Virus record (IMG/VR): IMGVR_UViG_3300006751_000059
Location: 1-34,133 of that record
Length of the DNA: 34,133 nucleotides
Source: a virus
Direction: 5' to 3' (one strand)
The translations under genes and the position numbers were made by a program. This document shows, one piece after another, positions 1 through 31,353 of this stretch. The notes beneath the pieces are model-generated. The model ran no database searches. It saw only the letters and a list, made by a program, of their open reading frames with translations, and was not told where the DNA came from. Position 1 is the first letter of the stretch; the number at the start of each line of letters is the position of its first letter.

Positions 1-3000
1 CCTCATTGTTTTTCCAGTTTGCTGTTTTGCCTAACATGTGCTGCACCTGCCCTTGAAGGCCGCTAATGCCGGCCTTTTTATAGGCATCACTATTCCAGAA
101 AACCGGACTATTTCTTAAAGCCTTTAGATTTTCTGATGTCAAGAACTTTTCAACTATGGAAAGAGGTCCGGCTTTGCCGCCGGCGTCCTTTTTCTTCTTT
201 ATGTTTTCTCGGAATTTTTGGATCTGTATGTCTACAATTTTTTGCTTAGTTTTGTTGGCGTCTGCGCCCTCCAAGGCTTGAACTTTTTCCCATTCACCAA
301 CTATGCCTTCACCGCCGCCACCCAGCTCTTTGAAAATTCTTATCCGCGCGGTCTTTAAAGCGCCGAAGGCTTCGGGGTCAAAATTGGTCATTGGGACCCC
401 GGAAGCTTGAAACTCCCTTAGGAGTATTCCTTTTTGTACGTCATTGAGGTTGGAGGTTCCCTTCTTTCCGTCTTTACCAAAAATTTGATCTGCTAAAAAT
501 CTTAATGGAACACTGCTTATTTGCTTCAGGGCGTGCTGGATCCCTTTGTTCACCTCTGGCCCATCTAGCCTCACGTCTTGGCCGGGCAACGGGTTTTGGC
601 CAGCGTCCAGTTGCTCATTTTTAGCTGATTTCCGCAGCCCCAGCTGCCTAAGCATTTTTATTCTTCCGGCATCATCGGCGGCTGCAAATTCTTCTGCAAA
701 TCTTTCCCCCGTTAATACTGATCCTCCATCATTTCGCATTTTGGAAAATAGGGTATGCTTGTCTCTTTCTTGATCACTCAGATCTCCCCATCCTGTTGCG
801 AATAAATACTCCCCAGCATTTTTTACCCCCGTTTCTTTGGCGACAATCTGGTCAACGCTTAAATCCTTATCGCTGAATTTAAATTTCTTTTTCAGCATCT
901 CAAGGCGCCCCAAGGGGTCATTGCCGGGCCTTTCGTATATACCGTGCAACGGGCGCTGTTTTGGACCTACTCTCATAGTGGTGTCGATGCCAGCTTTAGT
1001 AAACATTAATTCCGCCAATGCCGCCTCATCGCCGACCGATAGGATTTGTTGGCGCTTCTTTAATATGCTTATCGCGTCCTCGTGCTCCAGCGCTCTGTCT
1101 CGGAGCTTTTTCATTTGGTTTTCGTAGTACCGTTTCCCTTGATTGGTGAGGCCGCCCATGTCCCTATCTCGTCTATTAGTCTCTTCGTCCCTCCTTCGCT
1201 TCTCTAGGTCTTGGATTTCATTGTTAATGCCTCTTCTTCCTGCGCCCCCTATGAGGAAAGAGTTTTCTTGGTCTATTCTTTTTTGTAATCCGCTAGGAGC
1301 TACGCTTACTGCCTTCTTGGCTTCGTTTACTAACTGGGCGAATTTAACAGCTCCGCTAGAGGCCTTTACTTTTTGGTCTATATTTCCTAGGATTGCTTTG
1401 TAGTGCTTGTCCCTTAGGGCGTTGGCGCCTTCGATAGCACCTTGGCCTTCGTTGAATTCAAGAATGGAGTCGTCGAATTCTTTTTTCGATTTTATTTTTT
1501 CTTGTTCTTTGCGGATGTTGTCTATCTCTTCTATTCGTGCGTCTATAAGGTCCCTTCCGAACAGGGCCTCACCCCGCCCCAGAGGTTTTGCCCCGGGCTG
1601 CACCGGCCCTTGAATTTCAGCGCCTAGACCTCCATGCCTGTCAATGAAATTTTTCGCCTCCCCACCGAAACCTAATGGCATTTGGTTATCAGCCAACTTG
1701 CCATCTATGTCAAGCTCAAGAACCATCGCCTTAATCGACTCCATGGCCTTGTCGGCTCCCTCGCCATCTAGTTGAGTTAGTGTTTGCATTAGATTGCCGC
1801 CGTATCCAGCGCCAGCCGAAGGCAGGTAATTTTTAGCCATATCTAATATATTAGAACGTTTTGGGGCTGACTTGTCTTTTAAAGCGCTAATGAATCCATT
1901 GATTCGATCTGATGTACTTCCGGTAAATGGCCCAACTTCTCCCGGTACTAAAGCGTCGGTCAAAAGCCCTTGTTTGGAATGAGAGTACCACTCTTTAGTT
2001 TTACCATTTACCCCCATGGGAGAGAAAGGTGCCGAAACATAACCCATTCCCTCTTTTGCGAACGCTGGTGTTTGAGATATTTTGTCAAAAAATCCTTGGT
2101 AGTTTTCGCTTCTCTCGATGCCCGCCCATAATTGTTCACGAGTAGCTTGAACTATCTTTTCTTGTTCGGGGTTGGCTTTTTGAGGCAATCTATTAAGTCT
2201 CGCCTGCATTAAGTCTTTAATTCGGGCTATGTCTTCTTTTTTGTACTTAGCAGGCACTTGACTTAAAGTAGGCGCTCCTGTAGGGCTAGTCACCAAAGAA
2301 AGAGATTTGGGGAACTGTACAGCTCTAGATCCCGATTTTACGCTTTTAGCATAATCTCTTAACTGTTCTGAGAGTATAGCTGATGTCGCGAAGCTTGGGG
2401 AAAATTCATCAAGAGCTCCCACGTTAACCTTGCCCCCGCTAGCCAGCTCGTCAGCAACTCTCATCATGGTCGGACCAAACCTAAAAGGCTCAAAGTAGTC
2501 CCACTCGGGCGGCGACATTTCTATCCCTACGCCTCCTGAATGATCCAATCTTTTACTATTCTTGAAGAGTTTTTGCCGGAGTGGCTCTCTTTTAGTTATT
2601 TTATCTATCTGTGCTTGGGCGCTGTATTTTTTATCTGATGGCTTACTAGCCTCCAATAACCACTTTGCTTGATCTAAATTTGTTCCGGGGAACGCTTGGT
2701 CTGGATTGACTCCCGCCTCTTTTGCTATGCCGCCCCAGAAGCCAGTTGGGCTCCATCCTGTGGACGCTAATTGCCTTAGAAAGTCGTGGGTTACGCTACC
2801 TTCTTTATCTTTATAGGCGGTGTTTATAGGGGCATATCCAAACTGTTGAATATCATTTAGTAATGACTCTAACTGGCCTCCCCCAAGTGCCACTCCGGTA
2901 AGCTTCTTCAACCATGACATTTGCGAGATAGCTTTTACTGATGCGTGTACGCCTTTGCCCGCGTAAGTAATCGCTTTTCCTCCGGAAAAGACTAGCGCCA

Positions 3001-6000
3001 CGTTAGCAATGGCATCCGCAAAAGCTCCGCCTTCTCCCGTCCCTCCAGCTAGCTTGTTATAATCGCCAACATCTTCACCGATTCTATCCGTCATCCATGC
3101 TTGCAGGCTTTTTGTTAGACCCGATACTTTTGAGCTCCCTACGGTTTTGGCGATTCCAAATTCTTTTTTCGTGGCATCCGCCAACATTTGATCTATAGAG
3201 CCTCTATCCCCCGCCGTAATAAATGATGGCAATTCATTATAGACGTTGGGCAGAGCCTTTCCTAAATTGAAATCATTGAAAATATCTGGGGTTTTTCCGT
3301 ATCCGGGAATCGTTAGACCACGACCCTCCATTGGATTGTAGCCCAGTAAATAACCCTTTAGCTCGCTTCTTAAATCATCTATTCCTGATCCTTGACCCAC
3401 CGCCTTGGCCCATTCCATCACGGGCAAGAGCCCTCCGAAGTTCCCAATATTTTCTATGAAGTCAGTAGTTTGGGCCTTTTCTAACACTCTTTCCCTTTCG
3501 AGGTATGCGAGTTTTTCCTGAGTCGTTTTTCCTTTACTCCATTCTTTGAAATTCTGTAAATCAATAAGTCTATTACTGTTTGGGGCGAAATTAGGTGTAA
3601 ATCCGCTAGCCCCGCCCTGAAAAGATCTAGAGTTTTGCGTTGCTTTCTTTAGTCCTTCTGGATGGTCTCTCTTGACCGCTGCGAAATTGGGTTGAGTCGC
3701 AGCATCGCGAACGTAAGTTCCAACCTGCCGGTGATAATCTACAACCGGCCTTGACCCGGCTCCGCCCATCGCTCTTTCAGTTCCTAATGCTCGCGCTACA
3801 GCGGAGTGAGGGGCGTAATTCGGGACAAACCCTCCGGAAGCTTGGGGGCGGCCCGAACTTTGGGCGAGGCTTTTTATTAACTGCGTTGTTTGTTGGTGAT
3901 TCTTTTGAGATATTTCAAAACCCTTAAACATGGAGTTTCGAAGAGTTTCATTTTCCTGTTTTCTTGCGCTCCACGAATCAAAAGTAGCTTTCCTGTTTAA
4001 ACTGCTGGTTTCTCCCATCCGCTCTTTAATCTTATTTATTCCTTGAAGAACAACATTGTCGTTCGTCATGAAAGCCTCTTTCATCTTCATTAACTTTTCG
4101 GGCATGGCTAGATCCTTATTCATTCCGATCTTAGTCATCTCTTGCACTCTTTCAACCGTTTTCATTATTCCTCTCAGCATTCCAAAGGGGTTTACGAATA
4201 GGTTAGGTACAAAGTCTTTTCCTTCTTCTTTTGTTCTTGGCGGCGCAAAATTCGGGACAAACCCAGATGCAGCGGCAGGCCCTGCTGTTGCAGACTCCTT
4301 GAGTTTAGTAGCTGCGTCTTCTAGGGCTTTTGCTGAGATCATTAAGGCGCTTCCTCCTTCTTGAGCTGCTTGAGCGCCGATTTTCCCTGCCTCTATTATT
4401 ACCTCCGCTGCTGCTGCGGCTTTGAGTTGCGCGTCGGCAATCTTGTCGGCGTTTTGCTGCGAAGTGTCTTCTATAGCCTCCGCCCGACCCCCGACGTCTA
4501 GATCTAAATTCAACTGTTCTGCTATGGCAGTGTCTATATTTAGCAAGGGCGCCAGTCCGTCATTTATAGCTTGCGTAAGATTTTGAGTTAAATCACCCAA
4601 AGCTGCATCGCTTATGGATACCTCCATAGCTTCAGCTACCTCTTTTTCCGTAGCGACTCCGCCTTCTTGTAGACGAGAGAAGGCATTGTTAACAGCTTCT
4701 TGAAAAGAAGGGATTAAATTAGCGCTTGCGTCCTTTAAGTTGGTTATATCTAATGCCTTTAGTTCCCTCTCTAACCCACTTAGATCCAGTGCCTGCGACT
4801 CTTTTCCGGTTAAAGATTTAAAGACCTCCTTGAGATTGGAGAATTCAGTCAATGCTTTATTTTGTTCTTTTAGCGCGTTTAGTAAAGGATCATTTCCTCC
4901 GCCCATTTTTGACATTAGGTCAAGCGCCTTCTGTTGCTCTGAAAGCCTTTCTAACTGGGTTTTTTCGATAGCGGTCCCTTCCTTATAGGCGCTATCTAGG
5001 TTTCCAAGCATATTCAAGGAGCTCTCCGCTATTGCATTCCCCCTTAAAAACGCAGCCGCGAGGTTGTCTTGTTTTTGTAAATTAGCACTTAATTCGGCGC
5101 TGATTTTCATTTGAGACCCCTTAAGGTTAGCCCCAATATCCCTAAAAGCCCCAATGGTCTCGTTTGCGGCGGTTTTTTCTTCTGCGGTTCCGGTTCTTTG
5201 AATTTCGGTCAAAGTTTTGATCGCCTCGGTAGTAGATAGTGATCCATCTTTAATCTGTGACACAAACGCCTTGGAGATTCCCTGAAGCTCGGCCCCTTGC
5301 TTTTCTGAACTTGCTAATATTTTTGCAGCAAAAGTTGCCAGCTCAGCTTTTATACCTTGGGTGGCTGTCTGTCTAGCTTGTCCTATCGCTGCGCCCGCTG
5401 CACCTCTTGCTTGGGCTTGTGGGCTAACAGTAGACACTGCCTCCATCCTTTGAGATCGAGCGTTTGCGTTTATCTTACCCACTTGAGACAAGATAGAGAA
5501 GGCTTTTTTAGAGCTTGAACTTAGAACCTCAAAAGTTCCGCCTAACTTCGCTAATTCACCCCCTAGCCTTTGGGAGGCTGTTGTTTGGGCTTGAGTCAAC
5601 TCGGTTACAACCTGAACCGCAGCTTTTAGCCTAACTTGACCCTGTATCGTCTGAAGAAGACTATCGTTAAATTGGCTTTGCTCTCCTTTTGCGCTCCTAT
5701 TGGCTTTAACACCCTCTTCAAGAGATAAGAAGTACCCTCTTGCTTGACCATCTAATTTGCCCGTTACTTTTTCTATTGCGCTGAGTTGTTTTTCTGCCGA
5801 TTGAGCGCTAAATCCCGTAGCTTTAAAAGTAGCGGCGAGCTTTTGTATTTGCTGTGGGTTTAGGTCTTTAGTTAGAGTGCTTCCTAAGTCTTTTAACGAT
5901 ATCGACGTTTCGTCAAAATCTTCAAAACCATCGGTTGACTTAACTAGGTTTGTCAAGTCTTTTGCCAGTTCTTTAAGGTTCTTTCCTTGGTTTAAATCTC

Positions 6001-9000
6001 CTTTTGCCCCCTCGACCGCTTCGCTTAGTTTTTGCGGGTCTCCTATGGCATCAATTATTTTAGTGATGTTTTCGGGATTAACGTTACTCAAGTCCGAAAC
6101 TTGCATAAAGAACCCTTCCATAAATTTGCTAGCCGCTTCCATATTTCCGCTCTTTATGGCTTGTCCTAGATTGGCCGCACTAAGTGCAAATTTATCCATC
6201 TCTTCGATGGCTTTTTGAGTGGCTACCAGTTCTTTGTCTAGAGCGTCTGCATACTGTTGGGCTATCTCATCCCGACGACCATCGGTTTCAAAATCAAACA
6301 TTGCTAAAAGATCGTCCTTAAAGTCCCAAGCTAATCCACCGACAAACGCTAAAGCTTTTGCCAGTAATGTAAATTTTCCCCCTACCATTTCTATACCCGT
6401 CAAGGCAACTTGCGCCCCAGTTAGTGATTTTCCTGTCTGGTCGGCGATTGCGCTCAAACCAAACTGTGTAGCAATCATTCGCCCCATCCCCGCACTAGCG
6501 TCTTTTGCAGAACCTGCGGCTTCAGCCGCCTTTGTCTTCAGGATTCCAAGTCCTCTTCCTAAACCCAGTAAAGCGTCCTTCCCTTTTGTTGCGCCCACCG
6601 CTAATCCTTTTATTGCGGTGCCAGCGAAAAAATTAGGAACAAACCCTTGGGCAGCTCCATGAGTTTTTGGGTCTTGTCCCGATCTTATGGCTCTTTCCAC
6701 CCCTTGGCCGCCGCCCCTAGGTTCGTCCCTAGTATTGGCCACCAACAAGCCCATTGGGTTTTTGGGACCTTTTAATCTGGAATCAGTATCTGTATAAATT
6801 TTAGCTGATGAACCTTGACTGCGTAACGCCTCTTTTTCTCTAGATATTGCTTCTTCTAGAGAATTTGCCAAATTAGGAATGAACCCCGAAGCTGACCTTC
6901 GTGCTCGTGTGGGTATGTATTTCCTCTTATAACCGCCTTTTCCTTCAAGAGCTAAACTAATATCGTTAGAAGGAATAGTATTAAATATTTTTTGGCTACT
7001 ATATTTTTTGCCTGTTCTATTTACTTTTTTAATATATTCTTGGGCAAATCTTTTTTCGCTTTGCGGGTCTATTACTATAGGTTGTGGATCTAGTTGTAAG
7101 TCGTTTCTTTTCTTGGCTACATCTTTGATTGCGCCAACCACTTGTTTTTGGGTGAATTTTAAATTTCCCAGTATAGCTGCGTCTCGAACAGAAGAGGCTC
7201 CCCTTGAGTCTTTGTTCAGCATTTTTTGAGCGGTCTTTCTTTCGCCGCTCGTTGCGCCGCTCCCTTTTTTGAGTTTAGCCTCTAAACCGGAAATCATAGA
7301 GGGGCTTAATGCCATATTAGGTATGAAGCCCTGTGCTAAACCCTTTCGCCCTCTCCTTCCCGACTTTTCTGTCCTAAGGTCAAGCACTCTTACTTGATAG
7401 CCTCCTCCCTCAATGTTTCCTTGGTTCCCTAACGCTTCCCTGAAGGGTTCTCGCGGCAATCTATTTAGCTCGCCAGCCAATTGTTTTAAATTTCTAAAGT
7501 CTATAGACTTGAGCCCCGTAGACATATGAGCCAGAACATCCCCCGACGTCTTTATTCCTTTTACTTGTCTGGATTTCAATTGAGGGTAGGCATAAATTAA
7601 GTCTTCAAAGTTGTTTCTGGATCCTTGCTTAAAAGATCGGTTCTGGGTTATCCCTTTGCTGGTAAACGCTAGCCCCCTATCTATGTCTTTACTGGCAGCT
7701 ATTTGTTTCCATATTGCATGTTGACCGCCTCGTGCGCCGCTGTCTCCTCTTTGAGCCCATTCGATTTCTCTGCTGCCTCCGCTCTTATTGTAGTACAGTT
7801 TGGACCCCGTGTCGGCATCTAAATATTGACGATCATAATCACCCCCAAATACGTTCATGATGTTTCCGAAATTAGGAATGAAGCCGGAGGCTTGAGCGAG
7901 GCGCCCGTCTCTGGGCAAAATAACGGTGCTTTGTGGCAACTTAACCTTGTCGCGCCTTTTGTTTTTTAAGGACTTGCCTTTTATTCTTTCAGCGGTAGCC
8001 TTTCTTAGGATATCTCTGGCCGATTGCGGCTTCTTGACGGTCTTGACTTCTTCCCCTGTAATTAGATCAAAAGGAGCGTTTTTTCCGGCGACTTTAGTTC
8101 CTTTAGCTTTCGCTGCAGTCGCCTCACCCATAATACCCTTTATTGTATTCAGGATATTTCCGTATGCAGCCTGATCTCCGGGTTTGATATTGTTTAGCGC
8201 AGTTCTTAGTGCCTTGAGCTTGCTATCTCCTTTAGCGAAACCTTTCTTTTCGTATGACCTTATCCATCTGTTAATGTAATTGTCGTTTAGCTTCTTTCCT
8301 GTTCCTTTTTTTCCTTTTCCGCCCTTGCCCAAGCTGGTGATCATTTTGGAAGCCACTCGTTGAGACCACGCAGTGTATTGGCCAATATCCATTTTCTGAA
8401 ATTCTGGCACTATTAGGCTAGTGAATTCATCAAATGAATCTGTTTTCTTCCGTGAATTTCGAAGCTCATTGCTGTAATTAGGGCGTCCTAGCTGTGCGAC
8501 GGAAGCCGTGCTTAATATAGCTTTCCCTCCAAAGGGAGCTATTGTTTCTTTGGCCCTGTATCCTTGTGCCGTTAAGTCGCTGGGTATTGAGGTTACAAAA
8601 CTAGGAATAAAACCATCACCCGCTGCGATCCTCCCCTCGAAGTCCGGGTCAGAGTGGAGAGCATAAGCGCGTTCAATTTCCGGTTCCAGTTTTTTGTAGT
8701 ACTTCTCAATCTTTCTCTCGACATCACTCGAAAGACTTCTCTTTTGTTTAGAGTTGAAGAACTGCCTGAGGTCCCCAAGGTCCTTTTGTCGGCGGTTAGG
8801 CGATTGAGAGATATTGAAGAGTTTATCTTTATTGGTTAGCCGCAGATGGTGGCCCATGGAGTTAAAGCGAGAGACTGCCCCGCTCAACTTATTAAACTGC
8901 CGAGTGTCAAGCCCAGACCCTCCTTGGGAAAATTTAGATCTCTCTTTGGTGGCGTCACCCATACGGCCTATGAAATTGGGAATAAAACCATCAGCCTTAC

Positions 9001-11797
9001 CCTTTCCTTTTTTTCTTGCAAAGGATTCTCTAGCCTCCTTTAAAACCCTTCCGTCTATAGAATCCAAAATGCCCCCGGCTAATTGCGCGGGAAAAACTTC
9101 ATCAGTCGCTTTTTTGAGAACCTTGGCCCTCTCGCTGTCAGAGACCGTTCTCTTGGCATCAGCCCTAATGACTTTTTTTGTCCCAAAAAATTGCTCTTTA
9201 AGATAGCCCGGTATTGAACCCGCCGGCTCAAAATCCCATGTAGCGCTCTCATCTTTTCCTATATTCAGCGCAGACTCCTTGTTTCCTAATTTTAGAGCAG
9301 ATTCTAGAACCCCCCCCTCTACGGAACGGCTTACTATTTGCTTGTCTTTGTCCACTGAAGCGCGCACGCCTTTTATATATCCTGCGGTGTCAAAGTCTTT
9401 ACCGAAGTAGTTGCTGTATATTTTGGTCGCCACCTTTTCAACAGCATCAGCCATGTAAGGCTGAATTAGATTGGAGATAGGGCTGTTAAGCATGCTCTCT
9501 CCCTTTTTCCTGCTTATAGGTTCATTTGAAACTGTATTGACGGGAATATTTGTGAATTGAGTCATTCGCCCGCTGTAAAGTTTTGCGAAATCCTCGGCCT
9601 CTTTAGAATTTATACCCATACCCTTTGCCGCAAGGCTAACAAAAGGCTTCTTTAGGTCTGGATTTGAGAGCGGCCCTTTTATCCCTGACTTAGTCAGTCC
9701 GGGCGAGCCTCTTCCCCCAATGATTCCAAAGCCTTGAGTTGTTTTTTGAGTATCTACGCTCATGCTCCCTGAACCGTGCCCCGAGCCGTTCCAGAACTGT
9801 TTGAATTTAGGATCCCCCAATAGGGCGGCTTTTTTAGCGCCCTCTTTTTCTTTTCTTTGCTGTCTTGGATTGGCTGGGAAATTCGGGACAAACCCTCTGG
9901 CTACCGGAATGGCACCCTTGGGCATTCCGTGCTTTTTAACCATATCCTTGTTGAATATTGCCGACCCAGAACTGCCTCCGAACTTTGGCACAATAACCTC
10001 GTCTGTATTGGCAACCATGGTTTCTTTTCTACCCCCGCCAATTGGAAAATTATTTAAAACTTTAGTTCTTGCCCCCCTGCCTGCGCCACCTTCGCCTGCC
10101 GTAATGGCATCTCTTTCCGAGGATATTGCTCCTTGGATATTGTTGGCAAAATTTGGAATATAACCGCTGGCTCGTGACCTACCGCCCGTAGCCCCTGCTA
10201 CCGCAACACCCACAGCCCTAGACCCTGCTAGCTTCGCTATCATGGCTTGTTGGGCTTTATACTGCAGGGTTTGTTGTTCAAGCGTTTTTAACACCATCTC
10301 CTCCCGCTTTTCGTGAGTTAGGGATTCATTAGATATGTCTTGGTAAAGTTTGTCGTTGTGCTTTAATATCTGACCTATTTTGGCTTCTATTGCTGCTGTT
10401 TTTTGAGTGGCTGTATTAATTTTAAAAACCTCTTGTACGGCTTTTACTGATTGCCCTGTAATGAACTTAAATAATTTAACAAATGCAAGGCCTACGATGG
10501 CCAATCCCGGACCGGCTATAAAGTTACCTATAGCGCCAAACATTCCCTTGATCAAGCCGCTTCCCTTTTCTGGGTCCAGAGCTTTTGACAACCCTCCCGC
10601 CAGTGAGTTGAACACTTTCAGAAGATTTTCTATTGCGGGGGTGGCTACCAATTCCCCTAATGAAGAAGCAAGCTCCTTTACGTTCACTGCGGCTTCGTTA
10701 ACTAGTGCAGATAATGTAGTTTGAAGTTTTTCGTTTCTGCGAGCCGCTTCATCCGTTGCGCCTCCTGACTCCTTAAGGGCTCGCGTGTAAATACTGTAAT
10801 CGCTTCCCAAGTCTTTTATTATAGCTTTTAAATTATTGATTTGAAAAACGCCTGCTACTAACTCATCAGTATAAGCTCTTTGTGAGTCCGTTAGGGTAGA
10901 GTAAACTCCAGCATAATCCTGCAGAACACTCATAGCTCCTCGGATATTTCCTGCGGCATCTGTGGTGGCCACTCCAATTTCTTCAAGAGCTTCCCTGACT
11001 CCAGACCTAGAAAGACGGGTAAAAATACTTTTGAAAGCATTTCCTATCACGGCCCCACCTCGAGCCGTTTGCTGTTGAACGCTAGTTACCGCCGCCAAAA
11101 GCTCATCCATGCCTACTTTTGCACTCTGCGCGCTGGCACCGGCTCTAGCTAAAGCATCGGCCAAGTCATTAGTGCTAACCGCAAAAGCTGCGTCAACAGT
11201 AGCTAATTTATTTACTACCTCTGTAGTGGTTACTGCTGCATCGCCATAACTATTAACTGCAGCCGTCAATGTAGCAACTGACTTCGCCGCATCCATTCCG
11301 GAAAGCCGAGTCAATATCATCGCATCATTAATTCGGCTAAGGGTTTCTTCCGCACCCAGTCCTTGACGAGCTAATTCTACCGCAGCTTCCGATACAGAAG
11401 CAAAGCTCTGCCCTGTATTTCGCGCTACTTCAAACAGGTCTTTTGAGAAATTGGCTAAGTTTGAGCTAGTTAAATTAAGTATTACATTTACATCGGTAAG
11501 GGCTTTCTCTACCTCAATAGAGCTAGTGACCATCCCTTTAAATGCGTTGGCTACAGAGTTTACAACTCCCACAGCAGCTCCAAAAGCTAAGGTTCTGGCC
11601 ACCGAAGCATCTAAAGCGTTTTGGAATTCCCCTAAATCTCCGGTAATTCTGCCTAGCGGCTGCCGAAATCCTTTGTCATCCAAGGAGACCCTGAGGGGGC
11701 GAATATTCCTTTCCGCCCTTTGCACTTGACGCGCAATACTCCGCGTGTCAACTCTCGCGTCTAAATCTATCTCTATTGATCCTCTACCTAATGCCAT
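1..11797 (-). CDS. Giant tail tape measure protein with embedded domains (partial, C-terminus beyond window)
   Basis: This frame is open from ATG at 11797 to the left edge, at least 3,932 codons, with no stop seen. A TAAGG ribosome site lies about 8 bases upstream. Residues about 60-300 match the conserved N-terminal region of phage tape measure proteins: an Ala/Ser/Thr-rich helical stretch with SVSEAAVELARQGLG, NSYGDAA, GMDELLAAVTSVQQQTA and GGAVIGNAFKSIFTRL. Hydrophobic segments lie near 415-446, 1800-1820 and 2918-2946. Long helical stretches (about 1720-2500) fit tail-length determination. Residues 545-1720 and 2510-2735 instead hold a repeated G-[FY]-x-P-N motif that separates basic, compact-looking segments, two of them nuclease-like. 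It follows the tube and chaperone genes, the usual place for a tape measure. Identity as a tape measure is firm. The roles of the inserts are inference. The C-terminal 1,200 visible residues show no domain I recognise. Confidence 0.93.
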   Translation of the reverse strand, partial: MALGRGSIEIDLDARVDTRSIARQVQRAERNIRPLRVSLDDKGFRQPLGRITGDLGEFQNALDASVARTLAFGAAVGVVNSVANAFKGMVTSSIEVEKALTDVNVILNLTSSNLANFSKDLFEVARNTGQSFASVSEAAVELARQGLGAEETLSRINDAMILTRLSGMDAAKSVATLTAAVNSYGDAAVTTTEVVNKLATVDAAFAVSTNDLADALARAGASAQSAKVGMDELLAAVTSVQQQTARGGAVIGNAFKSIFTRLSRSGVREALEEIGVATTDAAGNIRGAMSVLQDYAGVYSTLTDSQRAYTDELVAGVFQINNLKAIIKDLGSDYSIYTRALKESGGATDEAARRNEKLQTTLSALVNEAAVNVKELASSLGELVATPAIENLLKVFNSLAGGLSKALDPEKGSGLIKGMFGAIGNFIAGPGLAIVGLAFVKLFKFITGQSVKAVQEVFKINTATQKTAAIEAKIGQILKHNDKLYQDISNESLTHEKREEMVLKTLEQQTLQYKAQQAMIAKLAGSRAVGVAVAGATGGRSRASGYIPNFANNIQGAISSERDAITAGEGGAGRGARTKVLNNFPIGGGRKETMVANTDEVIVPKFGGSSGSAIFNKDMVKKHGMPKGAIPVARGFVPNFPANPRQQRKEKEGAKKAALLGDPKFKQFWNGSGHGSGSMSVDTQKTTQGFGIIGGRGSPGLTKSGIKGPLSNPDLKKPFVSLAAKGMGINSKEAEDFAKLYSGRMTQFTNIPVNTVSNEPISRKKGESMLNSPISNLIQPYMADAVEKVATKIYSNYFGKDFDTAGYIKGVRASVDKDKQIVSRSVEGGVLESALKLGNKESALNIGKDESATWDFEPAGSIPGYLKEQFFGTKKVIRADAKRTVSDSERAKVLKKATDEVFPAQLAGGILDSIDGRVLKEARESFARKKGKGKADGFIPNFIGRMGDATKERSKFSQGGSGLDTRQFNKLSGAVSRFNSMGHHLRLTNKDKLFNISQSPNRRQKDLGDLRQFFNSKQKRSLSSDVERKIEKYYKKLEPEIERAYALHSDPDFEGRIAAGDGFIPSFVTSIPSDLTAQGYRAKETIAPFGGKAILSTASVAQLGRPNYSNELRNSRKKTDSFDEFTSLIVPEFQKMDIGQYTAWSQRVASKMITSLGKGGKGKKGTGKKLNDNYINRWIRSYEKKGFAKGDSKLKALRTALNNIKPGDQAAYGNILNTIKGIMGEATAAKAKGTKVAGKNAPFDLITGEEVKTVKKPQSARDILRKATAERIKGKSLKNKRRDKVKLPQSTVILPRDGRLAQASGFIPNFGNIMNVFGGDYDRQYLDADTGSKLYYNKSGGSREIEWAQRGDSGARGGQHAIWKQIAASKDIDRGLAFTSKGITQNRSFKQGSRNNFEDLIYAYPQLKSRQVKGIKTSGDVLAHMSTGLKSIDFRNLKQLAGELNRLPREPFREALGNQGNIEGGGYQVRVLDLRTEKSGRRGRKGLAQGFIPNMALSPSMISGLEAKLKKGSGATSGERKTAQKMLNKDSRGASSVRDAAILGNLKFTQKQVVGAIKDVAKKRNDLQLDPQPIVIDPQSEKRFAQEYIKKVNRTGKKYSSQKIFNTIPSNDISLALEGKGGYKRKYIPTRARRSASGFIPNLANSLEEAISREKEALRSQGSSAKIYTDTDSRLKGPKNPMGLLVANTRDEPRGGGQGVERAIRSGQDPKTHGAAQGFVPNFFAGTAIKGLAVGATKGKDALLGLGRGLGILKTKAAEAAGSAKDASAGMGRMIATQFGLSAIADQTGKSLTGAQVALTGIEMVGGKFTLLAKALAFVGGLAWDFKDDLLAMFDFETDGRRDEIAQQYADALDKELVATQKAIEEMDKFALSAANLGQAIKSGNMEAASKFMEGFFMQVSDLSNVNPENITKIIDAIGDPQKLSEAVEGAKGDLNQGKNLKELAKDLTNLVKSTDGFEDFDETSISLKDLGSTLTKDLNPQQIQKLAATFKATGFSAQSAEKQLSAIEKVTGKLDGQARGYFLSLEEGVKANRSAKGEQSQFNDSLLQTIQGQVRLKAAVQVVTELTQAQTTASQRLGGELAKLGGTFEVLSSSSKKAFSILSQVGKINANARSQRMEAVSTVSPQAQARGAAGAAIGQARQTATQGIKAELATFAAKILASSEKQGAELQGISKAFVSQIKDGSLSTTEAIKTLTEIQRTGTAEEKTAANETIGAFRDIGANLKGSQMKISAELSANLQKQDNLAAAFLRGNAIAESSLNMLGNLDSAYKEGTAIEKTQLERLSEQQKALDLMSKMGGGNDPLLNALKEQNKALTEFSNLKEVFKSLTGKESQALDLSGLERELKALDITNLKDASANLIPSFQEAVNNAFSRLQEGGVATEKEVAEAMEVSISDAALGDLTQNLTQAINDGLAPLLNIDTAIAEQLNLDLDVGGRAEAIEDTSQQNADKIADAQLKAAAAAEVIIEAGKIGAQAAQEGGSALMISAKALEDAATKLKESATAGPAAASGFVPNFAPPRTKEEGKDFVPNLFVNPFGMLRGIMKTVERVQEMTKIGMNKDLAMPEKLMKMKEAFMTNDNVVLQGINKIKERMGETSSLNRKATFDSWSARKQENETLRNSMFKGFEISQKNHQQTTQLIKSLAQSSGRPQASGGFVPNYAPHSAVARALGTERAMGGAGSRPVVDYHRQVGTYVRDAATQPNFAAVKRDHPEGLKKATQNSRSFQGGASGFTPNFAPNSNRLIDLQNFKEWSKGKTTQEKLAYLERERVLEKAQTTDFIENIGNFGGLLPVMEWAKAVGQGSGIDDLRSELKGYLLGYNPMEGRGLTIPGYGKTPDIFNDFNLGKALPNVYNELPSFITAGDRGSIDQMLADATKKEFGIAKTVGSSKVSGLTKSLQAWMTDRIGEDVGDYNKLAGGTGEGGAFADAIANVALVFSGGKAITYAGKGVHASVKAISQMSWLKKLTGVALGGGQLESLLNDIQQFGYAPINTAYKDKEGSVTHDFLRQLASTGWSPTGFWGGIAKEAGVNPDQAFPGTNLDQAKWLLEASKPSDKKYSAQAQIDKITKREPLRQKLFKNSKRLDHSGGVGIEMSPPEWDYFEPFRFGPTMMRVADELASGGKVNVGALDEFSPSFATSAILSEQLRDYAKSVKSGSRAVQFPKSLSLVTSPTGAPTLSQVPAKYKKEDIARIKDLMQARLNRLPQKANPEQEKIVQATREQLWAGIERSENYQGFFDKISQTPAFAKEGMGYVSAPFSPMGVNGKTKEWYSHSKQGLLTDALVPGEVGPFTGSTSDRINGFISALKDKSAPKRSNILDMAKNYLPSAGAGYGGNLMQTLTQLDGEGADKAMESIKAMVLELDIDGKLADNQMPLGFGGEAKNFIDRHGGLGAEIQGPVQPGAKPLGRGEALFGRDLIDARIEEIDNIRKEQEKIKSKKEFDDSILEFNEGQGAIEGANALRDKHYKAILGNIDQKVKASSGAVKFAQLVNEAKKAVSVAPSGLQKRIDQENSFLIGGAGRRGINNEIQDLEKRRRDEETNRRDRDMGGLTNQGKRYYENQMKKLRDRALEHEDAISILKKRQQILSVGDEAALAELMFTKAGIDTTMRVGPKQRPLHGIYERPGNDPLGRLEMLKKKFKFSDKDLSVDQIVAKETGVKNAGEYLFATGWGDLSDQERDKHTLFSKMRNDGGSVLTGERFAEEFAAADDAGRIKMLRQLGLRKSAKNEQLDAGQNPLPGQDVRLDGPEVNKGIQHALKQISSVPLRFLADQIFGKDGKKGTSNLNDVQKGILLREFQASGVPMTNFDPEAFGALKTARIRIFKELGGGGEGIVGEWEKVQALEGADANKTKQKIVDIQIQKFRENIKKKKDAGGKAGPLSIVEKFLTSENLKALRNSPVFWNSDAYKKAGISGLQGQVQHMLGKTANWKNNE
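8012..8155 (-). other. PD-(D/E)xK-like nuclease motif set B inside the tape measure
   Basis: Residues about 1215-1262 read IMGEATAAKA (Glu1225), then NAPFDLITG (Asp1244), then EEVKTVKK (Glu1250-x-Lys1252). This is the E...PxDL...ExK pattern of restriction-endonuclease-like folds, with a very short hairpin between the Asp and the ExK strand. A helical, Lys/Arg-rich segment precedes it (about 1100-1215). It lies between the motif copies at 1062 and 1305, so it is a second and separate insert. Confidence 0.5.
9128..9340 (-). other. PD-(D/E)xK-like nuclease motif set A inside the tape measure
   Basis: Residues about 820-890 of the tape measure carry an acidic helix motif EGGVLESAL (Glu832), then TWDFEPAG (Asp855, Glu857), then a beta-strand-like KVIRADAKRT with Asp880-x-Lys882. 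The order Glu, Asp, [D/E]-x-K and the hydrophobic residues around each are the hallmark of the PD-(D/E)xK nuclease fold. The set lies in the segment between the motif copies at 635 and 937. No activity can be proved from motifs alone. Confidence 0.5.
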
Positions 11798-11827: not shown

Positions 11828-12823
11828 TTAGCCTAAAGCTACAAAATCTTCCATAGTCAATGATCCATCGGGATTGAGGCCCGCTAACTCAAACGGGCTA
11901 ACATCCGCTTCGCTGGCTACGCCCATTTCTTCCATATCCTTTCTTGTCGCTCCTACCACGCTAAATCCTTGCTTATCTTGACTTCTTTCTACCGCAGTCT
12001 TATTTCTTCCCTTGGACTCAGCAAAGGATATTAATTCATCAGGATTGTCTTTTATTCCTTCTGGTATTTTTTCTATATTCTCTAGTATGGAATGTAGTAT
12101 CTTGGCGTAATTCAATAAATTTAATTGATAAAATGATAAATGATATATAGGTCTATTAAAGAATTTATATAAATTTGCAGAACCAACGACATTATAATAC
12201 ATAGAAAAAACGTTATTAATTGCAAGATGTTTTATATTTTCAGTAGAAAGGTCACTGATTGCCTCGTTGTACCCGCCAAACCATTGAGCTAGCTCTTGCT
12301 TGGTTAGCTCGGCATACTCATCCTTGGTGAAGTATTTTTCCTCTCCGTGGGGACTTTTGTAAAAGGACAGGTAGATGCTGTAGTCATTGCTCTTATTTTG
12401 AGCATAACTTTCGCAGGTTTCGGCCAATAAGGACTGCCTTCTTACCATGATCTCGGAAAGCTCTTTTTGCGCCTCAGAAATTTCTTCAGTAATCCGTTCT
12501 CTCTGACTCGGAATTATTAAATTTTTTTTAGTTTCTTCTAAGCTTTGAACTTTTTCGCCCCGTTCTTTATAGGTCTCTTCATCTTCAGTTGTCCAGATAT
12601 CCTCCTCGATCATCAAGGCGAGAGTCTCCTCTTCTGTCGGGAGGCCATTTTTTCTAGCTTTATCATATACCTCGCCACGGAAGCGTTCGAGGCGGTATTG
12701 GTCCTCGTTTCCGAAGTGTTTGACGTAAGCCTTCTGTCCATCTAGCTCTACCGGAGAGTAACCCTCCGTAATTTGAGCTAGGACTTTTCTTAGAATCTCG
12801 TCGCTTGGGCAATCATTTGCCAT
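11828..12823 (-). CDS. Putative tail assembly chaperone, second gene of the pair (G/T-like)
   Basis: A 331-residue protein whose ATG lies inside the end of the preceding gene (11-base overlap, ATGGCAAATGA), so translation is probably coupled. It begins MANDCPSDE. Residues 90-135 form a charged coiled-coil-like helix (REEI/QKELSE type), followed by an aromatic-rich section at 150-245. There is no signal peptide or membrane segment. The position, directly before the tape measure and after the tube genes, is where long-tailed phages encode the chaperones that coat the tape measure during tail assembly. The sequence itself does not prove this. The gene ends 30 bases before the tape measure ATG. 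Confidence 0.5.
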   Translation of the reverse strand: MANDCPSDEILRKVLAQITEGYSPVELDGQKAYVKHFGNEDQYRLERFRGEVYDKARKNGLPTEEETLALMIEEDIWTTEDEETYKERGEKVQSLEETKKNLIIPSQRERITEEISEAQKELSEIMVRRQSLLAETCESYAQNKSNDYSIYLSFYKSPHGEEKYFTKDEYAELTKQELAQWFGGYNEAISDLSTENIKHLAINNVFSMYYNVVGSANLYKFFNRPIYHLSFYQLNLLNYAKILHSILENIEKIPEGIKDNPDELISFAESKGRNKTAVERSQDKQGFSVVGATRKDMEEMGVASEADVSPFELAGLNPDGSLTMEDFVALG

Positions 12824-13760
12824 CAGCCTTGGCTTTTTGTGGCTCTTCCTCGGCCTTCTCTTCCTCGGCCTTGGCTTCCTCGGCCTTGGCTTTTTCTGGC
12901 TCTTCTTCCGTAGCCTCGGACCCTTCTTCGCCTTGAGGGGCTATTACATCTGCCGCCGAAGATTCCTCCTCATTCATTTGATCAAGTATAGCGGTGAACT
13001 CATCTTGTTCTTGAACACCACTCATGTACCATATTGTGGCAATTGTGCTTAGCCTGTCAATGCTCTTGACAAAAAGCTGTTCCTGCTCTTCATCCGCCTC
13101 TTGATACGAGCGATACTTTTCATCAAAATCTGTCCCCGAAAACAAAGGTATCTCTTCTGCGTTTTCATCATCCTCACCCTTTATGAAATAGGCGAGGTGA
13201 AGAAGAAACCATGTGATGGTTTTGTTTCTAGCCTTTACGTCAGCCGTGTGATCAAATATAGAAGCTTGCGCTGCCTCAAAATCCGCTAGCTGTTTTCTGA
13301 TAATAGCCAAGGATGATACGGCCCCTTGCAATCGTTCTTTCTCGTCATTGCTCATGTTGTCGGGGTCTTTGGCGCTGTATCGAATTACGTTTTGCTGTTT
13401 CTCAAACAACTGTAAGTACAGCTTTGCATAATTCATTTTGTCGTCTTCATTGAGAACACCGCCCAAATCCACTTGCTTCTTCGCAAGCATTGCGCGTGTC
13501 AATAGACCCATCTTTATGAACTTATTTAGCCATATGCTGTAAAACATATCGCCATCTTCCACCTGCGTGCGGGTAGGCTTTCTTAAAAATATTCTAATAG
13601 GAGTCTTCTCGGTAACCGTCTTTTTAACCGTCTCTTCGACGGTTTCCATTTTTTTCGTCTCCTTGTTCTTGCGCTTGACTTCTTTGATGACTTCCTTTTC
13701 TATCTCTTCTTCAATATCAATTGAGAAGCTGTACAATTCTCTTTTAGTTTTTTCTGCCAT
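12813..13760 (-). CDS. Putative tail assembly chaperone, first gene of the pair (G-like)
   Basis: A 315-residue soluble protein with an AAGGA ribosome site (aaaaaggaaa before ATG). Residues 10-50 are a highly charged Glu/Lys helix. Residues 55-245 look like a folded alpha-helical domain (e.g. RIFLRKPTRTQVEDGDMFYS, then TWFLLHLAYFIKG). The C-terminal 45 residues are a low-complexity Glu/Ala/Lys/Pro tail. It is called a chaperone from its location, just upstream of the tape measure, and from its overlap with a second gene. Its folded part is not a family I recognise by sequence. A run of five A near the end could allow a -2 frameshift into the next gene; this is described as a finding. Confidence 0.5.
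   Translation of the reverse strand: MAEKTKRELYSFSIDIEEEIEKEVIKEVKRKNKETKKMETVEETVKKTVTEKTPIRIFLRKPTRTQVEDGDMFYSIWLNKFIKMGLLTRAMLAKKQVDLGGVLNEDDKMNYAKLYLQLFEKQQNVIRYSAKDPDNMSNDEKERLQGAVSSLAIIRKQLADFEAAQASIFDHTADVKARNKTITWFLLHLAYFIKGEDDENAEEIPLFSGTDFDEKYRSYQEADEEQEQLFVKSIDRLSTIATIWYMSGVQEQDEFTAILDQMNEEESSAADVIAPQGEEGSEATEEEPEKAKAEEAKAEEEKAEEEPQKAKADGK
12824..12910 (-). repeat. Short tandem coding repeat for a Glu/Ala/Lys tail
   Basis: The end of the first chaperone-like gene contains degenerate tandem copies of a 9-15 base unit. It encodes EKAKAEE, AKAEEEKAEEEP and QKAKADG. Such a tail is expected to be disordered or a single helix and to vary in length between relatives by slippage. Confidence 0.75.
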
Positions 13761-24358: not shown

Positions 24359-25534
24359 TTAATCCAACTTCTCAAGATTCTTTTTGTCTTCTTTTTCGTC
24401 CTTCTTTAAGTCTTTAACCTGCTTTTTGTCGTCTTTGATGGCGTCTTTCTCGTGCTCTTTTTTTTCTTTCTTGTCGTCTTGCTTGAGCTCTTTTTTATCT
24501 TTCTCTTCATCGTCGCCAACAGTCTTCACTAGTCGCTCGGGGTGTTTGACTCGTAATTGTTCCTCAAAGTCGATGTTATTCAACGGGGCAATGCCTTGAC
24601 CTTTGGATTCTTCTTTTTTCTTGGAATCTTTTTTGTCGTCTTTCTTGTCGTCAGATTTCTTATCGTCAGATTTCTTGTCTCCATCTTTGTCGTCGTCTTT
24701 GTCATCGCCACCCTTTTTCTTGCGAATCATTTCTAGAAATTTTTCTTTGGCTGCTTTTTGTTTATCGCTCGCCGCTTCGGACTCTTTCTTCTTGTCGTAC
24801 TTAATATCTTTCTTGAGATCGTGAGTCTCGACGCTTTTCTTTTCCGAGGGCTTGTCTTTCTTTAGCTTTTTAAGCTTGCTTTCGTCGTCCTTGACGGCAT
24901 CTTTATGGTGCTCTTTCTTTTCTTTCTTGTCGTCACGCTTTAGCTCTTTCTCATCCGTCTTCTCCCAGTCCTTGGCGGAAGATTCATCTTTCCATGTTTT
25001 AGGCAACGAACTTTCACAGCCCAATTTCTTGGCTCGAGCGGTAAGTTTCCGCTTAAACTCATCAAAGCTCATAGGCCCTTTATACATTCCCCACGTACTT
25101 ACAGCAGCCCGTACATTCTTGCAAGAGACCACAGGAAAAGAGCGACGTTTAGGATCTAAAAACGCACTCTCCTCGAGTTCGCTTCTTTTTTTACCATCGT
25201 AACGCTCGGCCGCGAGAGCCATGCCCTCGTCCACCTCAACGCCGAAAGCCGAAGCTTTGGTTTGGATAATAGCGTAAACTTCCGCTTTGCCCTCGACGGA
25301 TAGGGAGCTTTTTCCTACCTCAGCAAGAGAGCGCTGGATCGAGCTTTCGTCGTATACCGGAAAATGCCTTAAGCGGTGGGGTACTGTTTTACCCGCTACC
25401 TTACTACCGCCGGGCTCAATATAAGCAAAGGCGGTATCTGGTAATTCATTAATCTGCTTGTGCGTCTTGTGCTCTTCGAAGATCTTTTGTAGATTCGTAG
25501 ACTCGCTAATTTTTTTTGAAAAATCTAATTCCAT
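24359..25534 (-). CDS. Lys/Asp-rich head-module protein with DUF6582-like segments
   Basis: A 391-residue protein between portal and protease. Residues 52-100 (HFPVYDESSIQRSLAEVGK) and 130-172 (SFPVVSCKNVRAAVSTWG) are related halves that resemble the small DUF6582-type domain found in phage head-module proteins. Residues 190-391 are extremely Lys/Asp/Glu-rich. They contain two copies of a 33-residue unit (196-228 and 348-380, both KELK-x-DDKKEKKEH-x-KDA) and a KSDDKKSDDKKDDKK tract. The C-terminal half is probably disordered or a long single helix. It ends 2 bases before the protease ATG. It may be an internal or scaffold-associated head protein; function unknown. Confidence 0.6.
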   Translation of the reverse strand: MELDFSKKISESTNLQKIFEEHKTHKQINELPDTAFAYIEPGGSKVAGKTVPHRLRHFPVYDESSIQRSLAEVGKSSLSVEGKAEVYAIIQTKASAFGVEVDEGMALAAERYDGKKRSELEESAFLDPKRRSFPVVSCKNVRAAVSTWGMYKGPMSFDEFKRKLTARAKKLGCESSLPKTWKDESSAKDWEKTDEKELKRDDKKEKKEHHKDAVKDDESKLKKLKKDKPSEKKSVETHDLKKDIKYDKKKESEAASDKQKAAKEKFLEMIRKKKGGDDKDDDKDGDKKSDDKKSDDKKDDKKDSKKKEESKGQGIAPLNNIDFEEQLRVKHPERLVKTVGDDEEKDKKELKQDDKKEKKEHEKDAIKDDKKQVKDLKKDEKEDKKNLEKLD

Positions 25535-29614: not shown

Positions 29615-30566
29615 AATTATCTAAAAAATATTGCAAATCAACATTCCACAACTCTTTACCATAATAAAGTAATTTTGGAATCATTAATTCTGAGTTAGCT
29701 CTTGTACCTGTAAAAACAAATTGGCAATGCCCATGAAATTCATGGGTCAGTAAGCGCATGTTATGCCAGACATAAGAAAGATTGGACTTGTGCGGTCCGA
29801 AGTTGTTGTTTTTCTTTATTTTGTCTAAGCTGCTTTCCGTGACTATATATAAATAAGCATCGAACTGTTTGGCGCGAGCCAGTTCCTTTCGGAACCTTTC
29901 GAAGCCAATAGTCATTGTCCCCTTGAAATCCCCTTCGCTTTTGCGGTCTACAAAAGTATAATTATAATTATCTCCACCCATGGTATAATCACCGAAGTCC
30001 AACTTGTGGTTTTTGGTGTTTTTAAAAGAAAGAGGTTTTTGTTCGCGGGTGTCGATGTATATTGGAATTTCTTCTATTGAATTTTTTTTCTGGAAAAAGT
30101 CTTTAGTGATACCTTTATTATATAATGGTTTGACGCCAAGCCCTTGACAGGCTTGAACGTAACCGCCGAAATTATACTTATACATATCTATTGGCGGTAA
30201 TTTATTTATCTCTATCTCTAAGTGGTTAGGTCCATGCTTTAATTCTTTTTGATCTATTCTATTCTTTAGTTGTTTAAGTATGTATTCTTTTACTTCTTCT
30301 TTATCAGTGTGTTTGTAACACCATTGAATCAGTTGAGCTCTGGTAGAGAAATCGGTATTGAAGTAGTCGAATTTGTTCTTGAACGGGAGGGGATCCCCGG
30401 TAAGCCGATTGAGCCGAGGATATTCTTGAGTATAGTATTCCGCCACTGTGAGGCCATGAACCTTCAAATGACGGTGCAGGGCTGCATCGTTCTTGAAAGT
30501 CTCTTTGCAGACCCCGCATGAGACTTCTATGCCCGTGTCTGCCATCTCCTGAGTCTCCAAAAGCAT
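29595..30566 (-). CDS. ERCC4-type nuclease with N-terminal C2H2 zinc finger
   Basis: A 323-residue protein. A classic C2H2 finger comes first: Cys17, Cys20, His33, His37 (CGVCKETF...HRHLKVH). Residues 165-250 carry the ERCC4 / XPF nuclease core: YIDTREQKPL (Asp172), LDFGDY (Asp193) and VDRKSEGDF (Asp207, Lys209, Asp213), then a GFERFRKEL helix. These enzymes cut branched or flap DNA. The stop overlaps the terminase ATG. The first ATG (30566) or ATG 30545 (MADTG) could be used; neither has a good ribosome site. Next to terminase it may process branched or concatemeric DNA before packaging (inference). Confidence 0.85.
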   Translation of the reverse strand: MLLETQEMADTGIEVSCGVCKETFKNDAALHRHLKVHGLTVAEYYTQEYPRLNRLTGDPLPFKNKFDYFNTDFSTRAQLIQWCYKHTDKEEVKEYILKQLKNRIDQKELKHGPNHLEIEINKLPPIDMYKYNFGGYVQACQGLGVKPLYNKGITKDFFQKKNSIEEIPIYIDTREQKPLSFKNTKNHKLDFGDYTMGGDNYNYTFVDRKSEGDFKGTMTIGFERFRKELARAKQFDAYLYIVTESSLDKIKKNNNFGPHKSNLSYVWHNMRLLTHEFHGHCQFVFTGTRANSELMIPKLLYYGKELWNVDLQYFLDNYDMGRR

Positions 30567-31144
30567 CTAACTATAAAATTAGGTATTTTTAAATTAAAGC
30601 CTTTTGTGTTTGTCGTTGAAGCGTTTTCAGCGTATAGTCTTCTAGTCAATATTCTTTTCCACCAAGATATATTTTCTAGTTTGCAATTTATTATTTGTAT
30701 GTTTTTTGTTTTGGGCAAGTCTTTTTTATCATAGTTTCCCCAATTCCCCATATCGACGAGCGCCCCGTCCCAGATATGATTGAAGTCATTTCTAAATGTG
30801 CAATCTTTGATCTTAATGTCTCGGCTTTCACATTTAATGGTGAAATGATGTTTTGTTCCTTTGGCTATGAAAGTGCAATTTTCGAAGAGTATATTGTCCC
30901 CCCGCACAATGTCTACGCAATCCTCATACCCCCCTATGATCGTTGTGTTGCGAATAGTTACATTGCTAATATGAGTCAGCTTTAAACCTTCTGCTACTCC
31001 ACAGGCATTAATGTGACAAGAGTCGATAAGGGATTTGCGAGTGGTGCCGCCTAGCCCAAAGGCATTATCGTCTGCAGCTCCTTTGAATCGGGAAAAGTCT
31101 CCCTCGAACTCTTGATCCCTTATTATTAGTGCGTAAGTATCCAT
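30527..31144 (-). CDS. Right-handed beta-helix protein
   Basis: About 205 residues from ATG 31144. The in-frame ATG at 31192 would add 16 residues that look non-native and overlap the previous gene by 67 bases. The body is a stack of short strands with turns: SLIDSCHINACG, NVTIRNTTIIGGYEDCVDI, NILFENCTFIAKG, DIKIKDCTFRND and NIQIINCKLENISWW. The I-x-[NID]-C-x-[FIL] ladder is typical of pectate-lyase-like beta helices. No catalytic residues are clear. The basic C-terminus (IVRCFWRLRRWQTRA) overlaps the next gene. It could be a receptor-binding or decoration protein; its place among packaging genes is unusual. Confidence 0.7.
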   Translation of the reverse strand: MDTYALIIRDQEFEGDFSRFKGAADDNAFGLGGTTRKSLIDSCHINACGVAEGLKLTHISNVTIRNTTIIGGYEDCVDIVRGDNILFENCTFIAKGTKHHFTIKCESRDIKIKDCTFRNDFNHIWDGALVDMGNWGNYDKKDLPKTKNIQIINCKLENISWWKRILTRRLYAENASTTNTKGFNLKIPNFIVRCFWRLRRWQTRA

Positions 31145-31353
31145 ATGGAGATAGGAACAAGACTTCCCATAATTGTGGCTATGGCGTCCCATACGTCAGC
31201 CGTGTGATTCACTTTGCCCATGTCCCAGCCCTCTTTGAGGATTCCAGCTATCCCTCCAAGCGCAAAAAAGGGTGGCCACATAAACCCTAGAGACGATAGG
31301 CCACACCCTACAATAAAATGCAAGACTTTATCTTTTTGTTTAAATAACATCAT
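31126..31353 (-). CDS. Small two-helix membrane protein, YfiM/DUF2279-like
   Basis: A 75-residue hydrophobic protein. It has D-K-V-L-H-F (8-13), a first membrane helix (about 12-38), then K-E-G-W-D (40-44) and D-V-W-D-A-I-A-T near 53-60 and a second helix (about 60-73). The D-K-x-x-H...K-E-x-x-D...D-x-x-D spacing resembles the YfiM/DUF2279 type of small membrane proteins. It overlaps both neighbours. It may act in lysis or the host envelope; this is speculative. Confidence 0.55.
   Translation of the reverse strand: MMLFKQKDKVLHFIVGCGLSSLGFMWPPFFALGGIAGILKEGWDMGKVNHTADVWDAIATIMGSLVPISIWILTH

Follow-up and report, generated by a model that had tools for sequence, protein, structure and literature searches.

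The window, by which we mean the whole 34,133-nucleotide stretch of DNA analyzed here, is a viral fragment in which one tape measure protein (TMP) appears to carry a series of cargo domains, with one repeated peptide of about ten residues at nearly every junction. We put the probability of this cargo-array reading, in which the motif serves as the junction peptide, at roughly 0.7, a figure that does not apply to proteolysis at the peptide alone. Comparison with related loci shows that an array of independent, exchangeable domains lies between the N-terminal part of the TMP and the remaining TMP, and, as far as can be judged from sequence, the motif array system is widespread among tailed phages of a large group, most of which are uncultured. 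The genes and the TMP region on which the argument turns are these:

2..11797, minus strand: TMP gene, 3932 aa, its 3' end cut by the contig edge with the frame still open there
10172..11797, minus strand: TMP N-terminal region, residues 1-542, with PhageMin_Tail; the part in common with TMPs of cultured phages
11828..12823, minus strand: 331-aa protein directly upstream of the TMP gene, found in 81 loci
12813..13760, minus strand: 315-aa protein, the second conserved upstream gene, found in 66 loci

The product is recognizable as a phage TMP from the homology of its N-terminus to TMP families. PhageMin_Tail (Pfam PF10145) matches residues 125-308 with an E value of 3.9e-26, and nine TMP families of PHROG also match, chiefly over the first part of the protein (phrog_4211, 1.1e-44). 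The genomic position is that of a TMP, with a chaperone-like gene pair preceding and a block of tail genes around it, among them a minor tail protein (phrog_290). The product would putatively lie in the tail lumen and set tail length. Elsewhere in the window, the gene at 29595-30566 matches an ERCC4-type nuclease, has an N-terminal zinc-finger-like stretch (CGVC...HRHLKVH) and overlaps the start of the terminase gene, and a 221-aa protein near the terminase (30527-31192) matches a right-handed beta-helix at 1e-7.

The core G[FY][IVT]P[NS][FLMY] occurs 11 times in the 3932 residues of the TMP, a number that shuffling of its sequence does not approach (mean 0.0035, maximum 1). The core glycines are residues 545, 635, 937, 1062, 1305, 1490, 1638, 1718, 2512, 2656 and 2732. 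The initial annotation had described eleven copies of A-S-G-[FY]-[IVT]-P-N-[FLMY] at 3602-10165, and its count and positions are correct, residue 545 mapping to 10165 and residue 2732 to 3602-3604. Its consensus needs correction: A-S-G is found in only 5 of the 11 copies (545, 1305, 1638, 2512 and 2732), and the copy at 1062 reads GFIPSF, with S in place of N. A twelfth, degenerate copy was also recognized. The copies are:

10148..10171, minus strand: motif copy 1, ASGYIPNF
9878..9901, minus strand: motif copy 2, ARGFVPNF
8972..8995, minus strand: motif copy 3, ADGFIPNF
8597..8620, minus strand: motif copy 4, GDGFIPSF
7868..7891, minus strand: motif copy 5, ASGFIPNF
7313..7336, minus strand: motif copy 6, AQGFIPNM
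6869..6892, minus strand: motif copy 7, ASGFIPNL
6629..6652, minus strand: motif copy 8, AQGFVPNF
4247..4270, minus strand: motif copy 9, ASGFVPNF
4199..4216, minus strand: degenerate copy DFVPNL, residues 2528-2533, seen in the sequence
3815..3838, minus strand: motif copy 10, SGGFVPNY
3587..3610, minus strand: motif copy 11, ASGFTPNF

About 200 relatives, almost all of them on viral contigs, came from scans with DNA patterns and from one search that did not use the motif. The first pattern, A-S-G-F-[IV]-P-N-F-A applied at the DNA level, gave 88 stretches in IMG/VR; nearly all have at least two copies within one long frame, and none has the motif in another frame. Two further patterns, for other motif variants, added 106 loci, in which motif-like matches in other frames numbered five, weak and isolated. 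Applied to prokaryote genomes totaling 257 Gb, the first pattern found 18 stretches, two of them with arrays (L095 and L101); the other 16 were single or unmatched chance hits without arrays. The two array TMPs are on short, viral-looking contigs binned into bacterial metagenome-assembled genomes, and are probably misbinned phage contigs or infecting phage. The window array itself gave no hit against GenBank phages by tblastn, and retrieved nothing as the query in a search for related loci, where the motif DNA patterns succeeded. The array has no match in the 50,697 GenBank phage records, which align with the N-terminal part of these TMPs or with a C-terminal segment. The motif-independent search used as query the 315-aa gene two places upstream of the TMP. 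All 11 of the long-TMP relatives that it found carry the peptide, eight in the standard form and three as GLVPN or GIVPN, against the possibility that the motif is absent from related TMPs. In the open-access papers searched, we found neither the peptide nor the array.

The usual array TMP begins with an N-terminus of approximately 550 aa and a first motif; module A and a second motif follow, then one to six cassettes, each with a motif at its end, and lastly module B or C, another motif and the remaining TMP. Module searches find this order in most TMPs, and at least one module in 93 of the 106 loci of the second set, which was selected with other motif variants; junctions without a recognizable motif copy occur as exceptions, for example in L032 and L087. 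The window has module A, five cassettes, module B, a long motif-free stretch and a second, short array that ends with module C, the segments between motifs ranging from 67 to 785 aa, as unequal in size as had been described:

9914..10129, minus strand: module A, residues 557-628, the opening bracket (HMM E 5e-16)
8999..9877, minus strand: cassette 1, residues 641-933, commonest cassette family (phmmer, L201, 1.7e-11; HMM without the window, 1e-5)
8624..8971, minus strand: cassette 2, residues 943-1058, no assigned family (relative in L139, 1.2e-5)
7895..8596, minus strand: cassette 3, residues 1068-1301 (L056, 3.8e-21; HMM 1.7e-28)
7340..7867, minus strand: cassette 4, residues 1311-1486 (L059, 7.2e-31; L052, 1.1e-11; L016, 1.3e-10)
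6896..7312, minus strand: cassette 5, residues 1496-1634 (weak match to L037, E 0.0026)
6656..6868, minus strand: module B, residues 1644-1714, the closing bracket (HMM 6e-27; model pLDDT 78-88)
4274..6628, minus strand: motif-free stretch between the two arrays, residues 1724-2508, related to L014 and taken, from its sequence, to be a ruler region
3842..4246, minus strand: segment of residues 2518-2652, for which a search for relatives found none
3611..3814, minus strand: module C, residues 2662-2729, the second kind of closing bracket (HMM 1e-22)

Module B is predicted by a structure model to be an alpha-beta-beta-alpha mini-domain, for which a fold search gave no match. The similarity among profiles of modules A, B and C comes from the motifs shared at their ends, and homology among the modules is therefore not claimed.

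The 473 segments between motifs, modules included, fall into 121 families, of which 67 were seen once, and the families vary in ordinal position and in their neighbors; relatives of cassette 4, for example, occupy other positions in other phages. In the pair L022 and L081, DNA identity is 93, 86, 93 and 93% before a motif, 20-40% in the cassette and 90-100% from the next motif onward, and L011 and L035 show a similar drop and return in the same slot. Identity is lost at one motif and regained at the next, so the cassettes have been exchanged at the motif. Breakpoints lie within 12 residues of a motif in 51 of 104 cases against 16% expected, although the pairs are not independent. Alignment of related phages thus shows cassette exchange between them at the motif peptides, and the suggestion that the motif marks off apparent cargo domains is supported. 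Mosaicism of TMPs was found by sequence in a survey of mosaic phage proteins, which could not confirm genuine recent cases (PMC10684548); the swaps described here would be cases of this kind.

The nature of the cassettes is clearest in L052, where a tRNA nucleotidyltransferase occupies residues 1238-1518 of an unsplit TMP (phrog_2244, E 6e-56), with motifs at 1207 and 1682. CCA-adding homologs in the PDB (3aqm and 6ibp) match at approximately 1e-15 to 2e-15, and the catalytic motifs IIGGAPRD, KDWDVEV and RRDLTVNA, of the GG-x-x-RD, DxD and RRD types, are intact. By these sequence features the cassette is firmly identified as a complete tRNA CCA-adding enzyme, and it may possibly serve as an injected tRNA-repair enzyme. 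The surrounding segment (L052, 7575-8972, plus strand) holds the complete enzyme with an HD-like region inside the TMP. A cassette of L082 matches AAA_33 above the Pfam cut-off and, more weakly, polynucleotide kinase, and so resembles an ATPase of the polynucleotide-kinase kind. Among the relatives, firm catalytic domains come to one enzyme per TMP, the CCA-adding enzyme of L052 and the kinase-like domain of L082, and the window has nuclease-like cassettes at the motif level only. Matches of cassettes to GNAT (5e-5) and SNase (0.013) are suggestive, as are the HAD, HExxH and protein-kinase signatures spotted by eye. The kinase-like and HAD-like cassettes had no match in the PDB, and the HEASH motif, which lacks a Pfam match, is confined to L008 and L085, with none in the window cassettes.

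The commonest cassette family had 50 members in the first set and 101 in a later search. Its residues E204, D227 and K254 are nearly invariant in 42 sequences, and the pattern GxxFE...D...(D/E)xK makes it look like a PD-(D/E)XK nuclease by motif only. A fold search of the PDB gave no match (model pTM 0.44) and a PDB sequence search no confirmation; because a restriction endonuclease-like fold is unconfirmed, we do not file the family as a PD-(D/E)XK member. Cassette 1 of the window belongs here, with GxxFE...D...DAK, likewise PD-(D/E)XK-like by motif only, and cassette 3 belongs to a second nuclease-like family, with GE...D...EEVKT, again a resemblance of motif. Pfam, NCBIfam and PHROG searches left most cassettes without a family match, and that few cassettes match a known enzyme counts against the cargo-array reading.

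Cysteine is nearly excluded from the array TMPs, with 17 in 178,335 residues, and from the cassettes, with 1 in 42,721, compared with 1.15% in the other proteins of the window and 0.69% in the other open reading frames of the loci. Eight control proteins (L112-L119), of which six are annotated as TMPs, lambda gpH among them, and two are candidates without such annotation, contain zero or one cysteine each, which rules out cysteine exclusion as a trait specific to arrays. TMPs in general, those of the cultured phages lambda and SPbeta included, nearly exclude cysteine and are also poor in histidine. Since low cysteine is general to TMPs, we use it only to argue that the cargo seems, from its composition, to be under the same constraint as the TMP, which would fit travel within the tail.

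According to the cargo-array reading, the TMP would be the carrier, and the cassettes, being part of it, would travel inside the tail tube, enter the host with the TMP at the start of infection and act there as pre-made host-takeover or counter-defense enzymes in tRNA repair and nucleic acid processing. The motif may, with less certainty, be an exposed linker read by a trans-acting factor. In the one reasonable structure model, that of module B (mean pLDDT 71), values are 78-88 over the folded part and under 50 in the motif on either side, which places the motif outside the domain. The prediction thus agrees with a location of the motif at domain boundaries, and runs against its lying inside well-folded domains. 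The logo, [AM]-[AS]-x-G-[FY]-[IV]-P-N-[FY]-A, stands out sharply between -3 and +6, its flanks being at background; the search expression itself dictated positions 0 to +5, whereas -3, -2 and +6 were free except in each locus's selecting copy. The conserved core, G-F-[IV]-P-N-F-A, holds 3-5 bits per core site.

Motif copies within one TMP are more similar than shuffles at -2, -1 and +2, and the change of the +1 aromatic residue to L, I, M or V clusters by TMP, with 59 within-TMP pairs against a shuffle mean of 10 and a maximum of 26, in a test affected by the choice of loci and by shared ancestry. Such concerted change is what one would predict if the peptide is read by a factor particular to each phage. 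In L251, L252, L253 and L254, most or all copies read GL[VI]PN or GIVPN rather than GF[IV]PN, a lineage-specific and concerted variation. The motif-free parts of the window TMP are residues 1-542, 1724-2508 and 2738-3932, and the absence of the motif from long ruler-like stretches favors a cargo-specific role over a general chaperone site.

The likeliest use of the motif, which we nonetheless hold only tentatively and at less than even odds, is as a processing site at which proteolysis frees the cassettes, either in virion maturation or after ejection; we rank it slightly above docking. A nearly invariant core across very different phages fits a fast-evolving phage protease less well, and a search of the window for a dedicated protease identified none beyond one weak match. 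This match is a 391-aa protein of the head gene region (24359-25534), with a 5e-3 match to an annotated head maturation protease and no match in Pfam or PHROG. The cleavage consensus of T4-type prohead proteases has an acidic P1 residue, and no acidic residue is conserved from -3 to +6 of the motif.

Alternatively, the motif might be a docking peptide that binds the 331-aa protein, the tail tube or a hub protein, the cargo being threaded and held in register uncut, which we think only slightly less likely than proteolysis. It gains from a motif that is conserved, disordered and varies in concert, and from the 331-aa gene family, since in each of the 81 loci where a member adjoins the TMP gene that TMP has the motif; this co-occurrence was seen in a motif-chosen sample, however. 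The 331-aa and 315-aa proteins are placed like tail assembly chaperones, are unusually long, have no family matches and are candidate partners of the motif. Docking is harder to reconcile with a motif found only at cargo boundaries and absent from motif-free stretches that would also need chaperone or tube contact.

A passive hinge and recombination joint, that is, a well-tolerated linker spread by cassette swapping through the motif, would account for exchange breakpoints at the motif and for the slight excess of shared codons among copies (same-codon pairs 0.569 against 0.492 expected, 137 TMPs). It is nevertheless unlikely. In the same 137 TMPs, 599 of 635 18-nucleotide cores differ from the others within their own TMP, and it is therefore not similarity of the DNA that has been preserved; codons also differ among the copies of the window TMP, and the variation of codons and the selection at the protein level that had been claimed for the peptide are both upheld by this count. 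A plain linker would, moreover, neither keep its information content at each core site nor change in concert. That these are ordinary repeat-containing TMPs, whose segments are a structural ruler or coiled-coil and whose enzyme-like matches are chance or sporadic fusions, is very improbable: most cassettes do lack a family match, and variable length and sequence mosaicism are on record for TMPs (PMC10684548), but a complete CCA-adding enzyme (GG.PRD, DxD, RRD) sits between two motif copies and the 121 cassette families are exchanged whole.

Enzymes on TMPs have precedents. The TMPs of mycobacteriophage TM4, SPbeta (yomI) and Staley carry a peptidoglycan hydrolase domain, an enzyme on a TMP as here, but one that acts on the cell wall and lies outside any array; SPbeta and Staley share a homologous N-terminal region with the array TMPs, and no motif was found in the control TMPs tested. 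The internal proteins of T4 have a capsid targeting sequence that is cut by the prohead protease, and thus, as here, a short conserved peptide beside injected proteins, although they belong to the head rather than the tail, are encoded by separate genes and have the acidic P1 residue that is absent from the present motif. N4 virion RNA polymerase and P1 DarA and DdrB are large injected proteins with enzymatic cargo, as is proposed here; to our knowledge they are not TMPs, and we know of no repeated junction peptide in them.

The N4 and P1 proteins are discussed with the polyvalent proteins (PMC5512222), the nearest concept to the array TMPs. Polyvalent proteins of phages and conjugative elements join many catalytic domains of unrelated kinds (kinases, GNAT, nucleotidyltransferases, peptidases) in a single chain, which is predicted to accompany the DNA into the host (Iyer et al. 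2017, PMC5512222). We infer a comparable delivery for the array TMPs from TMP biology and cysteine exclusion. The array TMPs differ in having the TMP as carrier, a universal junction peptide and the A, B and C brackets, and PMC5512222 mentions neither tape measure proteins nor linkers. A zincin-like metallopeptidase is a frequent hub domain, in about 36% of the polyvalent set (PMC5512222), whereas zincin domains seem to be rare in the array TMPs. The Sle1-type TMP-like effectors of contractile injection systems, which are tube-loaded and ejected, resemble the array TMPs in being a TMP-related carrier with swappable effector domains; they have a single C-terminal effector beside a DUF4157 partner, in bacteria, and no repeated motif or cassette array is described for them (PMC13277306).

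It is conceivable, though we regard it as somewhat less than an even prospect, that the array TMPs are the dedicated cargo platform of a large phage group: a TMP polyprotein of enzyme cassettes, exchanged as units in the manner of a gene-cassette array, but at the level of protein, and freed in the new host by a reader of the universal peptide. A phage so equipped would be armed before any of its own genes is expressed. If the cargo-array reading is true, a means of delivery has been overlooked in the TMP, and hundreds of unclassified domains would become recognizable as injected effectors by their flanking peptide, the motif providing a search key for counter-defense and takeover enzymes in uncultured phages. 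The arrays would also bear on the passage of enzymes, whether folded or unfolded, along a tail tube, a passage that the rule of cysteine-free cargo makes testable.
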